Shown piece after piece: positions 14,685-18,649 of a DNA stretch of 64,000 nucleotides. The DNA is from Granulicella paludicola. Its GTDB lineage: Bacteria > Acidobacteriota > Terriglobia > Terriglobales > Acidobacteriaceae. Where the stretch lies: positions 124,001-188,000 of the forward strand of contig NZ_JAGSYC010000023.1 of the NCBI RefSeq assembly GCF_025685545.1, given 5' to 3'. The notes beneath the pieces were generated by a model. The model did no database searches, had not been told where the DNA came from, and was given only the letters and a program-made list of their open reading frames with translations. The position numbers and the translations under genes were made by a program. Numbering within the stretch: position 1 is the stretch's first letter; every line of letters begins with the position of its first letter.

Positions 14685-14800
14685 ACTCAGCAAAATTCTT
14701 CCTCCCACGGCCCCTGGTCGCTGCTCCCTTTTGCCTATTCCCTGCCCCTAGGCATCCCCGCACCCCCGCCAATCCTCTATATCAATTGGAGATACCCCAC

Positions 14801-15730
14801 ATGCTGCGTCCCTTCTGGTCAGGCCACATGCAAATCTCGCTCGTTTCCTTCGGCGTCAAGCTCTTCCCTGCCACCGAAGCCAAGAGCGAGATCCACTTCC
14901 ATCAGCTCTCGCGCAAAACCGGCGAGCGCATCCGCCACCAGAAGGTCAGCAGCAGCGACGACGCCACCCCTGTCGAAAAGGACGAGATCGTGAAAGGCTA
15001 CGAGTATCGCAAGGGCGAATACGTCACCGTCGAGCCCAGCGATATCGAGCACATTCGCATCCCCTCACGCCATTCCCTCGAAGTCGCGCAGTTCGTCAAC
15101 GTCTCCGAACTCCGCCCTGAGCTCTTCGAGAAGCCATACTTCGTTGTGCCTGAAAACGACCAGCAGGCCGAAGCCTTCGCCGTCGTCCGCACGGCCATGC
15201 AGACCGAAGGCAAGGCCGCACTCGGCAAGATTGCCTTCGGTGGCCGCGAACACCTCGTCGCTATCACCGCACCCGACGACAAAGCAGAAGAACGCGGCAT
15301 GATGGCCTACACCCTGCGCTACGCCGAAGAACTTCGCGATCCTGCAGAATATTTCGGCGAGATCAAGAAAACTTCTGTCGACAACGACCAACTCTCGCTT
15401 GCCAAAGAGCTCATCAAGCGCAAGAGTTCACCCTTCAAGCCCGACGCGTTCAAAGACGAATACGAAGTCGCCCTGAAGCAGATGGTCGAAGCCAAGGTGA
15501 ACAACGCTCCTCTGCCCGCCGAGGAGCCCGCTCCCAAGTCCGGCAAAGTCATCAACCTTATGGACGCCCTGCGCAAAAGCATCGCCCCCGCGTCGGAGCC
15601 GAAGCCCTCTACGCCAGCAAAGAAGGTTGCAGAAAAGCCTGCAGAGAAAAAGGGCCCACGCCTCGTGAAACCCACACCGAAGGCTGCGGCCAAGGCCGCA
15701 AAGTCGAGCAGACAGCGCAAATCCGCCTGA
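14801..15730 (+). CDS. ku: Ku protein (non-homologous end joining)
   Basis: The bacterial Ku homodimer binds double-strand DNA ends and recruits LigD. The 309-residue protein shows the family start MLRPFWSGHMQISLVSFGVKL, the conserved EIHFHQLSRKTGERI and the core motif around GYEYRKGEYV and SLEVAQFV. A Lys/Ala/Pro-rich tail of about 45 residues ends the protein, as in other bacterial Ku proteins where it helps DNA binding. The open frame extends to a TTG at 14786, but ATG 14801 is preferred since GGAGA lies 8 bases upstream and the family starts here. ligD follows after 9 bases, so the two form an NHEJ operon. Confidence 0.97.
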   Translation: MLRPFWSGHMQISLVSFGVKLFPATEAKSEIHFHQLSRKTGERIRHQKVSSSDDATPVEKDEIVKGYEYRKGEYVTVEPSDIEHIRIPSRHSLEVAQFVNVSELRPELFEKPYFVVPENDQQAEAFAVVRTAMQTEGKAALGKIAFGGREHLVAITAPDDKAEERGMMAYTLRYAEELRDPAEYFGEIKKTSVDNDQLSLAKELIKRKSSPFKPDAFKDEYEVALKQMVEAKVNNAPLPAEEPAPKSGKVINLMDALRKSIAPASEPKPSTPAKKVAEKPAEKKGPRLVKPTPKAAAKAAKSSRQRKSA

Positions 15731-15739
15731 GGGTTACCC

Positions 15740-18649
15740 ATGACGACTGCCAGAAAATCTTCGGCGAAGAAGGCCGTCGTAAAAAAGACTGCGCCGAAGA
15801 AAACATCCGTGAAAACGAAAGCTGCGAAGAAGTCTGCTTCGCCGTCGGCTGAGATTGATCGCCAGCTGGCTCTCTACCAGTCCATGCGCGACTTCAGCAT
15901 CACCGCAGAACCAAGCGGCAAAGAGACGCCATTCACTGCGAAAGGCAAGCTTCCCTTCGTCATCCAGAAGCACGCCGCCTCGCACCTCCACTACGACTTC
16001 CGCCTCGGCTGGAACGGCGTCCTCAAGAGTTGGGCCTGCGCCAAAGGCCCCAGCTACTTCCCCGGCGATCGCCGCCTCGCCGTGCAAGTCGAAGATCACC
16101 CCATAGGCTACGGTGGCTTCGAAGGCATCATCCCGCAGGGCCAGTACGGCGGCGGCACCGTCATGCTCTGGGACCAGGGCACCTGGGAGCCGCAGCCCGG
16201 ACACACCGACGTCGACGCCGGTCTCCGCGATGGCTCGCTCAAGTTCACCCTCCGCGGGACCAAACTCAATGGCAACTGGACACTCGTCCGCATGGGCGGC
16301 AAGGCTGCGAACGAGAAGAAACCAAACTGGCTCCTCGTCAAGGAACACGACGGCCTCGAACACAGCGAAACCGACATACCCATCATCGACTCCCAGCCGA
16401 ACAGCGTCGTCACCGGTCGCTCCCTCGAGCAGATCGCCGCCCAGCAGGACCACACCTGGAACTCGAACGACCCTCGCGCGAAGCAGCAGAAAGAACCGCC
16501 GGGCCTCGTAGCCAAGCCCGCGGCGAGAGCCGCGAAGTCAGCCCCCAAACCCAGCCCCACCGAAGTCCCCAAGTCCCCCAAAGAGAAACTCCCAGCCTTC
16601 ATCCCGCCGCAGCTCGCCTCGCAGGCCACCACGCCACCCGACACCGGCGCATGGCTGCACGAACTCAAGCTCGATGGCTACCGCATCCAGGCACGCAAGT
16701 CAGGCGACAAGGTCGAACTCCTCACCCGCACCGGCCTCGACTGGACGCACCGCATGAAGGCCCTCGCCGCCGACGTCGCGAAGCTCCCCGCCCACGACTG
16801 CCTCCTCGATGGCGAGGTCGTCGTCCTCGCCGACAACGGCACCACCAGCTTCGCCGACTTGCAGGCCGCCTTCCAAAGCGGTGGCAAAGCCCAGCTCACC
16901 TACTTTGTCTTCGACCTCCTTCATCTCGACGACCACAACCTCCGCGACCTCCCGCTTCTCGAACGCAAGAAGACCCTGCAGCAGCTCCTCGCCAACGCTC
17001 CTGCCGAGATCCGCCTCAGCGAACACCTCGATACCGACGGTGCAGCCATGTTCCAGAAGGCGTGCGAACTCCATGCCGAAGGCATCATCTCCAAGCGCGC
17101 CGACAGCCGCTATATCTCTGGCCGTAGCTCGTCCTGGCTCAAGCTCAAGTGCATCCGCGAGCAGGAGTTCGTCATCGGCGGCTTCACCCTCCCGGCCAAA
17201 GGCCACGCCGGCATCCACGGCATCGGCGCTCTCCTGCTCGGCTACTACGACGACGCTGGCCACCTCATCTACGCGGGCCGCACCGGCACCGGCTTCACCC
17301 AGAAGCTCCACAACTCCCTCCGCACCCAGCTCGAAAAACTCAAGCAGACCACTACCCCCTTCACCGATCCCCCCGCCGAAGCCCGCCGCGGAGCCGCCTG
17401 GGTCAAGCCCACGCTCGTCGCCCAGGTCCGCTTCGCCACCTGGACCTCCGACAACCTCCTCCGCCAGGCCTCCTTCCAGGGTCTCCGCGAAGACAAGCCC
17501 GCCAAAGAAGTCGGCCGCGAAGAACCCGTCGCCAAAACACCGACGAAAACTCACCAGCAATCCTCTTCGAAGGGTAGGCCTTCCAAGGATGGGGCTTTGG
17601 AGGGTGCAGCTTTGAAGGGTACGGGCTTCAGCCCGTACATAAAAGTCCCCAAAAAGACTGGGGCTTCAGCCCCGGAGGGTACGGATCTTCGCACCCCGAA
17701 AAGACTCAATCCGAACGCCTCCAAAACATTTGCAACCCACAAGGAAGCCAAAGTCACAGCCAAGCCCACCACCCAACACGCCCCCATCCGCCTCACCCAC
17801 CCCGACAAAATCATCGACCCCGAATCCGGTACCACCAAGCAGCAGCTCGCCGATTACTACTGGGCCATCGCGCCCTACATGCTCCAGCAGATCGAAGGAC
17901 GCCCGCTCTCCATCGTCCGCTGCCCCGAAGGTTCTATCAAGCCCTGCTTCTTCCAGAAGCACACCAACACTACGCTGCCTCCCGGCGTCGAATCCATAGA
18001 CGTCCCCGACAAGAAGACCGGCAAGCCCGAAGCCTATATCACCGTCCGCACGCCCGAAGCCCTCGCCGGCCTCGCGCAGATCGGCGTCCTCGAAGTTCAC
18101 CCCTGGGGCTCGCAGAACGACGACCTCGAGCACCCGGACCGCATCATCATCGACCTCGACCCCGACGCCGCCATCTCCTGGCCCACCCTCGCCGCCGCAG
18201 CCGCCGAGGTCCGCGCCCGCCTCAAAAAACTCGGCCTCGAATCCTTCCTCAAATCCACCGGCGGCAAGGGCCTGCACATCGTCGTTCCCATCGCACCCGA
18301 CCACGACTGGCCCACCGTCAAAGCCTTCGCTCATAACTTCGTCCTGCAGCTCGAAAAAGATAACCCCCGCCTCTACCTCACCAAGATGTCGAAGGCCGCT
18401 CGCAAAGATCACATCTATCTCGACTACCTCCGCAACGAGCGCGGAGCCACCGCCGTCGCCGCCTTCTCCCCTCGCGCCCGCGCAGGCATGCCCGTCTCTC
18501 TGCCGCTCCCGTGGTCCGACCTCAAGCTCCCCGAGCGCCCGCTCTTCTACCTCTCCAACTTCGCCGACTGGAAGTCCCGCCTCCGCTCCAACCCCTGGAA
18601 GCAGCTCCCCACCCTTCACGATCAGACGATCCCTACACCGCAGGGCTAA
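15740..18649 (+). CDS. ligD: LigD: DNA repair phosphoesterase-ligase-polymerase
   Basis: Multifunctional NHEJ enzyme of 969 residues with the domain order phosphoesterase, ATP-dependent ligase, primase-like polymerase, as in the Pseudomonas type. The phosphoesterase domain is seen at about residues 50-215 (HAASHLHYDFRL, GGFEGIIPQGQYGGG). The ligase lysine is K310 in ELKLDGYRIQA, with further motifs (CLLDGEVVVL, SSWLKLKC). The polymerase domain occupies the last 300 residues (IIIDLDPD, KSTGGKGLHIVVP, DHIYLDYLRNERG). The N-terminus is a Lys/Ala-rich tail of about 33 residues. The ligase-polymerase linker holds a palindromic DNA repeat in frame (residues about 610-653), making the protein longer than usual. 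The ribosome binding site GAGGG overlaps the ku stop codon. Confidence 0.97.
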   Translation: MTTARKSSAKKAVVKKTAPKKTSVKTKAAKKSASPSAEIDRQLALYQSMRDFSITAEPSGKETPFTAKGKLPFVIQKHAASHLHYDFRLGWNGVLKSWACAKGPSYFPGDRRLAVQVEDHPIGYGGFEGIIPQGQYGGGTVMLWDQGTWEPQPGHTDVDAGLRDGSLKFTLRGTKLNGNWTLVRMGGKAANEKKPNWLLVKEHDGLEHSETDIPIIDSQPNSVVTGRSLEQIAAQQDHTWNSNDPRAKQQKEPPGLVAKPAARAAKSAPKPSPTEVPKSPKEKLPAFIPPQLASQATTPPDTGAWLHELKLDGYRIQARKSGDKVELLTRTGLDWTHRMKALAADVAKLPAHDCLLDGEVVVLADNGTTSFADLQAAFQSGGKAQLTYFVFDLLHLDDHNLRDLPLLERKKTLQQLLANAPAEIRLSEHLDTDGAAMFQKACELHAEGIISKRADSRYISGRSSSWLKLKCIREQEFVIGGFTLPAKGHAGIHGIGALLLGYYDDAGHLIYAGRTGTGFTQKLHNSLRTQLEKLKQTTTPFTDPPAEARRGAAWVKPTLVAQVRFATWTSDNLLRQASFQGLREDKPAKEVGREEPVAKTPTKTHQQSSSKGRPSKDGALEGAALKGTGFSPYIKVPKKTGASAPEGTDLRTPKRLNPNASKTFATHKEAKVTAKPTTQHAPIRLTHPDKIIDPESGTTKQQLADYYWAIAPYMLQQIEGRPLSIVRCPEGSIKPCFFQKHTNTTLPPGVESIDVPDKKTGKPEAYITVRTPEALAGLAQIGVLEVHPWGSQNDDLEHPDRIIIDLDPDAAISWPTLAAAAAEVRARLKKLGLESFLKSTGGKGLHIVVPIAPDHDWPTVKAFAHNFVLQLEKDNPRLYLTKMSKAARKDHIYLDYLRNERGATAVAAFSPRARAGMPVSLPLPWSDLKLPERPLFYLSNFADWKSRLRSNPWKQLPTLHDQTIPTPQG
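17569..17690. repeat. REP-like palindromic repeat inserted in ligD
   Basis: The block contains a perfect inverted repeat at 17619-17638 (GTACGGGCT, TC, AGCCCGTAC), a second at 17660-17673 (GGGGCT, TC, AGCCCC) and four copies of AGGGT(A/G) at about 17571, 17601, 17616 and 17676. The shared core GGGCTTCAGCCC and the spacing suggest a dispersed intergenic palindromic element. It lies in frame in the linker between the ligase and polymerase domains. No second copy of the core was seen in this window, so dispersal in the genome is inferred. Confidence 0.65.

Follow-up and report, generated by a model that had tools for sequence, protein, structure and literature searches.

How does a palindromic repeat come to be read as part of a DNA ligase? 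This question is raised by ligD of Granulicella paludicola (assembly GCF_025685545.1, our handle G000; 4.96 Mb in 26 contigs; Acidobacteriaceae), which lies in the stretch analyzed here, 64,000 nucleotides (nt) of contig NZ_JAGSYC010000023.1 (positions 124,001 to 188,000, forward strand), hereafter the window. We conclude that the insert in LigD is very probably a copy of a mobile element of the repetitive extragenic palindrome (REP) type, the spread of which depends on a REP-associated tyrosine transposase (RAYT, a single-strand transposase of the HuH/Y1 type) that this genome itself encodes. This reading is based on the many copies of the element, its two hairpins on one strand, the compensatory changes in hairpin 1, the inverted copies that flank both RAYT genes, and the empty sites in relatives. 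The features of the locus, by window position, are as follows.

15740-18649, + strand: ligD, a single intact open frame of 969 amino acids, with 3'-phosphoesterase, ATP-dependent ligase, and primase-polymerase domains.
17528-17773, + strand: inter-domain linker of LigD (residues 597-678), disordered in an AlphaFold2 model.
17564-17608, + strand: additional left heads of the element, now decayed, seen as GCTTTGAAGGG-like units at a spacing of about 15 nt and as their in-frame translation.
17609-17692, + strand: the two-hairpin, RAYT-associated element (84 nt, residues 624-651), delimited by BLAST, nhmmer, and covariance-model copies, by alignment, and by covariation in hairpin 1.
17619-17638, + strand: hairpin 1, a perfect 9-bp stem, GTACGGGCT/AGCCCGTAC, in which 17619-17627 pairs with 17630-17638.
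17660-17673, + strand: hairpin 2, GGGGCTTCAGCCCC, read from the sequence and followed by a GGAGGG foot.

A first-pass annotation had described an in-frame palindromic repeat in the ligD linker over 17569-17690 (residues 610-651), and this description was borne out: the core GGGCTTCAGCCC occurs exactly at 17623-17634 and 17661-17672, each time within a hairpin, and the 969-residue frame remains intact. The AGGGT-type short repeats reported with it are also present, as AGGGT-like units at steps of about 15 nt upstream of the element. The unit common to nearly all copies is 17609-17679 (71 nt, the core of the element), with an extension to about 17692, and the frame +1 translation of 17609-17692 is ALKGTGFSPYIKVPKKTGASAPEGTDLR. 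A third match to GGGCTTCAGCCC with at most one mismatch was absent from the 64-kb window (0.63 expected). Two matches were reached in 14 of 100 shuffles, so that the window alone is no proof of a repeat; the proof comes from the copies across the genome. Folded as single-stranded DNA, the ligD stretch was more stable than its shuffles (z, -2.26; 4 of 200 equally good), and a search of 17000-18200 against Rfam, up to an E value of 1, gave no match. Extra head copies are found at most 60 nt upstream of 6 of 66 copies in the same genome, compared with 3 of 260 control windows (Fisher P = 0.003).

A BLAST search with 146 nt around the ligD copy returned 42 matches in its own genome, including itself. 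Most of these span the same 71 nt, and some of the 41 others are partial or adjoining; the best are 84% identical to the ligD copy (E, 7e-19). A covariance model built from 30 copies, with 150 candidates scored, found 94 matches at an E value of ≤0.1 and 88 at ≤0.01, the ligD copy included and a few overlapping on opposite strands, and the search of the source genome that had been proposed earlier thus did not refute the first reading. The ligD unit matches the family at an E value of 2e-22 with nhmmer and 2.4e-22 with the covariance model, both models containing the ligD copy. The element was found in 24 of 28 genomes of the genus (covariance model, E ≤ 0.01), and the element or a relative of it in 126 of a sample of 150 genomes of the family (E ≤ 1e-6). 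Its consensus is GCTTTGAAGGGTACGGGCTTCAGCCCGTAC, a spacer of variable length, and then GGGGCTTTAGCCCCGGAGGG. As a short palindromic repeat with many copies per genome, it is a REP in the wide sense.

The stems are conserved as structures, at least for the first hairpin. Over the 30 copies and 12 tested pairs, 97.5% of cells were paired, compared with 92.2% in shuffles. For the eight pairs of hairpin 1 the proportion was 98.8%, with compensatory changes in four pairs, and both-sided changes at four pairs were reached by none of 500 shuffles. Hairpin 2 is nearly invariant (95% of cells of four pairs paired); none of its four pairs showed a compensatory change over the 30 copies, so that there is no covariation evidence for it.

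The genome carries three Y1_Tnp genes, of which two are RAYT-like (NF047646) and the third is of the IS200 type. The RAYT gene at C17:3698-4078 scores 126.7 bits against an NCBIfam cut-off of 80, and the RAYT-like gene at C17:377129-377479 scores 71.9 bits. Both lie between two inverted copies of the element (2 of 2): C17:3610 (+) and C17:4105 (-) around the first, and C17:377031 (+) and C17:377526 (-) around the second. At C17:3698 nhmmer shows a copy on one side only; the second copy there was detected solely with the covariance model (40.8 bits). As regards a possible MITE of an IS200/IS605 element, the IS200-type gene (C19:45241-45576) is adjoined by no covariance-model match of this genome. 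In the genus, NF047646 matches occur in 22 of 28 genomes, and in three of them (G159, G160, and G172) a strong element copy lies within 100 nt of the RAYT match. We infer that the RAYT mobilizes the element. The open frame of the RAYT gene at C17:377129 (L063, 1432-2007, +) continues through the downstream element copy, so that the transposase ends in element-encoded residues.

The RAYT would act on single-stranded DNA, cutting and joining it at the hairpin feet (GAAG on the left, GGAG on the right), and in this way scatter copies over the chromosome. Selection would then remove copies that disrupt a needed gene, and those that leave the frame open, in both length and phase, within a flexible linker or loop would survive and be translated. 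In LigD, the copy and the older head fragments would occupy the disordered linker that joins the ligase to the polymerase.

Several points weigh against this reading. The comparison covers one genome per species. The element has the head GAAG, compared with GT(A/G)G in described REPs, and the translation of the insert is predicted from the DNA frame. The likely cognate RAYT (C17:377129) scores under the curated cut-off. Further, of the 31 RAYT loci checked with nhmmer in the genus, only 9 have the element within 300 nt, on both sides in 5 and inverted in 4; several of the other loci have nearby palindromes of a different sequence, and at the rest none was found.

The placement of the insert in LigD is consistent with a site at which such a copy would be tolerated. 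The Pfam domains of the protein cover residues 76-184, 302-470, 494-586, and 699-944, and its relatives in the PDB span residues 289-594 and 680-960. Residues 597-678 have a predicted local distance difference test score (pLDDT) of <50 in an AlphaFold2 model from 35 aligned LigDs. By this model the copy lies wholly in a disordered tether and is most likely close to neutral. We cut the ligase-polymerase stretch from 130 loci (109 distinct, including the window and some from outside the acidobacteria). The element is absent from 107 of the 109 distinct linkers, and the one other carrier, Granulicella sp. bog_210 (G155; L075, 2557-2630, and L112), has a different variant, GGSRGLQPPENVTLEKGASAPG, in a linker of 240 nt; the comparison of LigD proteins that had been proposed earlier thus agrees with an insert not shared by relatives. 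The bog_210 element is in frame, but its hairpin 1 is read in a different frame from that of the window copy, and its variant has three further good matches in the bog_210 genome. On the simplest reading the two LigD inserts are probably independent insertions, and common descent is possible. The LigD insert is lineage specific and lies in a linker predicted to be disordered. Weak element matches in other LigD loci (L079, 2397-2447, 8.4 bits; L098, 3709-3744, E = 0.004) were set aside, being outside the cut linkers or in a duplicate locus.

LigD is not the only protein affected. Of 81 copies examined in the same genome (83 matches at E < 5e-4, minus two overlapping opposite-strand matches), 7 lie in frame inside genes, namely those for LigD, MetG, ValS, AlaS, HemC, a MoeA-like protein, and MnmG. 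An eighth case, an endonuclease VIII-like gene (L005), is borderline, with an upstream score of 9, or 13 in a second scoring. The idea that a mobile palindrome had been adopted as protein sequence is thus supported, but it is not an isolated event. Except for MnmG, in which the copy is on the opposite strand, these copies share strand and frame and encode the peptide ALKG(T/R)GFSP...GA(S/L)APE. In-gene calls were based on a codon-usage score on both sides of the copy, trained on 33 window open reading frames (ORFs), with a score of >12 required on each side; the score has the weakness that shadow ORFs reach 0.31 bits per codon and that two training ORFs fall below 0.

Elements inside genes of relatives mostly encode the same peptide, ALKGTGFSPSV-n-GALAPEG. 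In loci of genome G158, 12 of 38 elements are in frame, in 10 genes, and among the best copies of other genomes the count is 12 of 26; because these loci were picked by covariance-model score and not randomly, the fractions are not genome-wide rates. Further carriers in relatives are LeuS, GlmS, MiaB, RimO, QueA, MurD, UvrA, HemC, NagA, and IspE, with LysS, HemD, an Lhr-type helicase, and a beta-aspartyl-peptidase less sure. Carrier names were taken from NCBIfam for 30 proteins. Scores exceed the curated cut-off for MetG (two loci), HemC (two), ValS, AlaS, MnmG (two), IspE, MiaB, QueA, MurD, UvrA, NagA, RimO, LeuS, GlmS, and MnmE. They fall below it, so that the proteins are called only "-like," for MoeA, LysS (the locus ends inside the gene), HemD, the Lhr-type helicase (two), beta-aspartyl-peptidase (two), ArnT-like and KdtA-like genes, the helicase match in L202, and the endonuclease VIII match in L005. 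The protein of L346 (155-2395) matched no NCBIfam family.

By hand count, the set from the same genome, the G158 set, and the best-copy set hold 25 distinct carrier genes, of which 8 act in tRNA charging or modification (MetG, ValS, AlaS, LeuS, LysS, MnmG, MiaB, and QueA). Such genes make up about 1 to 2% of a genome, and their share among the carriers looks far above this.

As in LigD, empty sites are found in relatives. In the AlaS and ValS loops of genus neighbors, the insert was present in none of the 23 others compared for each enzyme, and a search with nhmmer located no element within the two genes; its sole match in the neighbor loci (L314) lies behind the gene. The MetG insert starts about 10 residues after the KMSKS segment, at a point where the chain of the best homologue of solved structure continues uninterrupted, and the GlmS insert of G151 maps between residues 137 and 141 in the chain of its best homologue of solved structure. 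An AlphaFold2 model of ValS was poor (mean pLDDT, 53.9) and was not used.

Several carriers show a more complex pattern. In MetG (G000 and G166) and in HemC (G000 and G158), the elements of different species occupy a common loop of the protein, which may reflect shared descent or a preferred loop. The RimO gene of G172 (L196, 274-2331, -) has two in-frame elements, and QueA of G158 (L368, 439-2451, +) has at least two, entered three times in the in-gene list and partly one compound insert. Two Lhr-type helicase orthologues (L217 of G157 and L219 of G152) share an in-gene element in which a hairpin 1 base changed on both arms, so that the stem was kept though one residue switched between T and R.

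In-gene copies are also biased in frame and spacing. Frame +1 is used by 22 of 32 in-gene copies (the list of the second scoring, which used 73 nhmmer elements from the same genome along with the G158 and other-genome elements, plus MnmG), or 19 of 27 after same-place inserts of orthologues are merged, whereas the open frames of the other copies would predict 29% (P = 4e-6; merged, P = 1e-5). For the genome of the window, the second scoring gives seven in-gene copies, L005 among them; it lacks MnmG because the merged copy was scored in a locus ending 72 nt away. Of 84 copies that do not lie in genes, 46 have frame +1 open and 27 have frame +3 open, and each of two reverse frames is open in 43. 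Of the in-gene copies, 19 of 23 have a loop-to-loop distance equal to 2 modulo 3, as do 26 of 74 others (Fisher P = 8e-5); once two orthologue pairs are merged, the in-gene count is 18 of 21. This set started from 128 elements, of which 28 were dropped because the second loop was not clear or the distance was out of range. The GGAC stem variant is found in 20 of 29 in-gene copies and 24 of 99 others (4 of 7 and 6 of 59 in the genome of the window). The spacing counts exclude four elements of loci L373-L381, some of which had been picked for a matching peptide; the GGAC count is from the set that still held these four and had the MnmG copy misplaced. It is important to note that the in-gene search demands an open frame through the element, so that frame-breaking in-gene copies are invisible to it, and that with a TTTA loop one of three spacings puts TAG in frame. 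Both push toward the frame and spacing rules, though not as far as 19 of 23, and the P values are optimistic given the open-frame demand and possible shared descent.

Based on the frame +1 bias, the spacing rule, and the excess of GGAC stems in genes, we tentatively consider that the element may exist in a coding-adapted form, although at present this seems doubtful. It would be a RAYT-spread palindrome with a sequence and spacing that give a Gly/Pro/Ser-rich peptide when read in a single frame, and it would have repeatedly decorated core tRNA-charging, tRNA-modification, and repair enzymes across the genus.

An alternative account of the LigD insert is that it was kept because it helps, either by altering the cooperation of polymerase and ligase through tether length or composition or by tuning expression through an mRNA hairpin. 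The second species with another variant in the same linker would fit this account, as would the both-arm change in the two helicase orthologues and the frequency of repair and tRNA genes among carriers, as also described in the available text of a 2013 survey (PMC3733652). The LigD linkers of the loci compared are nevertheless hypervariable (75 to 330 nt), and the same peptide occurs in unrelated enzymes, which argues against a role specific to LigD. A changed tether length had been suggested before. The linker of the window is indeed long (297 nt), and a functional change is possible, but it is not indicated, because two element-free linkers are longer still (312 and 330 nt). We consider it unlikely that the insert was kept for its usefulness.

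Less probable again, with a very small chance in our estimation, is that the insert is spliced from the mRNA or bypassed by the ribosome and is hence absent from the protein. The element is a pair of hairpins, and ribosome bypassing at hairpins is known elsewhere. Yet in-gene copies keep the frame and are without stops, which would be needless if they were removed, an argument weakened in turn by the open-frame requirement of our in-gene search. That an ordinary low-complexity, repeat-rich linker merely resembles a mobile element can practically be dismissed: A, K, P, and S abound in the linkers of relatives, but the ligD unit matches a genome-wide family (E, 2e-22), hairpin 1 covaries over 30 copies, and 84%-identical copies occur elsewhere.

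We therefore return to a REP-type element dependent on a RAYT and compare it with known systems. One acidobacterium, Koribacter, is already part of this literature. It is mentioned for transposases with terminal inverted repeats in the available portion of PMC3733652, which describes intragenic REP palindromes in several phyla, including in DNA ligase, UvrA, tRNA synthetases, and pseudouridine synthases. As here, many of its in-gene GTAG/CGTC palindromes are in repair, tRNA-modification, and tRNA-synthetase genes, with the DNA ligase of Opitutus terrae among them; dimers and groups encode 20 to 30 residues, and GTAG types are transposase associated (PMC3733652). Those REPs differ in species, sequence, and their GTAG or CGTC head, compared with the GAAG and GGAG feet found here, and over half of their inserts consist of dimers or groups of a single REP, in contrast to a fixed pair of two different hairpins. 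Neither a preferred frame nor a spacing rule, both seen here, is mentioned in the accessible part of that survey.

The RAYT/REP units of PMC2817692, as far as the text available describes them, also have a transposase gene between two inverted, abundant palindromes with stems kept by complementary changes, and the Haemophilus influenzae REP GTAGGGTGGGCTTcAGCCCACC closely resembles hairpin 1. They have a GT(A/G)G head, however, and the consensus here has GAAG. Assignment as a GTAG REP (PMC2817692, PMC3733652, in the portions seen) was rejected, there being no GT(A/G)G head 5' of the palindrome. REPINs are described, in the part of PMC3116915 available, as inverted and mostly extragenic doublets; here the loops have the same orientation, and about one-tenth of the examined copies in this genome are in genes. 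The element was also rejected as a REPIN: the loop of both hairpins is CTTNAG, oriented alike, and their feet, GAAGGG on the left and GGAGGG on the right, are not reverse complements. With both tests failing, we filed it as a REP-type, RAYT-associated element.

Rickettsia palindromic elements (RPEs) are described in the available text of PMC10969869 and PMC3733652 as selfish palindromes in frame in unrelated genes, with a conserved peptide. In-frame insertion into unrelated genes with one preferred peptide is likewise found here, although RPEs are about 150 nt long (PMC10969869, in part) compared with 84 nt. This comparison is by description and not by sequence, and membership among the RPEs is not claimed. 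To our knowledge, no transposase has been linked to RPEs. RepRanger, in the portion consulted, includes Granulicella aggregans among genomes with REPs, and open-access full texts gave nothing nearer for the combination in Acidobacteria or Granulicella. REPs in frame in genes are thus already known, and what is new here is an element that is RAYT linked, frame biased, and in core enzymes.

Selfish DNA has apparently been turned into protein sequence many times in this genus, and the enzyme that likely mobilizes it is still flanked by the element. This bears on the question of whether in-gene inserts are merely tolerated or shaped for readability. Many species of the genus have dozens of matches per genome, sister species share inserts, and insert-free relatives exist, which opens the question to comparative and proteomic tests in soil bacteria. 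Annotators should also be aware of repeat-encoded segments within conserved enzymes of this group.

A second repeat family, GTCATCCTGAGCGNAGCGAAGGACCTGC, has 58 matches with at most three mismatches in the same genome (reversed control, 0). It is in frame in ValS (L026), HemC (L020), and MnmG (L226), where it encodes CHPERSEG/CHPERSAA, ILSEG, or QVLRSAQDD peptides. One gene (L024, 711-1583, +), which we take to be LutA-like, terminates within a copy of the two-hairpin element, from which its final residues and its stop codon come (GIEGYGLQPVHS...). In the window, the neighbor of ligD is as follows.

14786-15730, + strand: the ORF directly 5' of ligD, presumably a Ku-like gene, to judge by features of Ku sequences.

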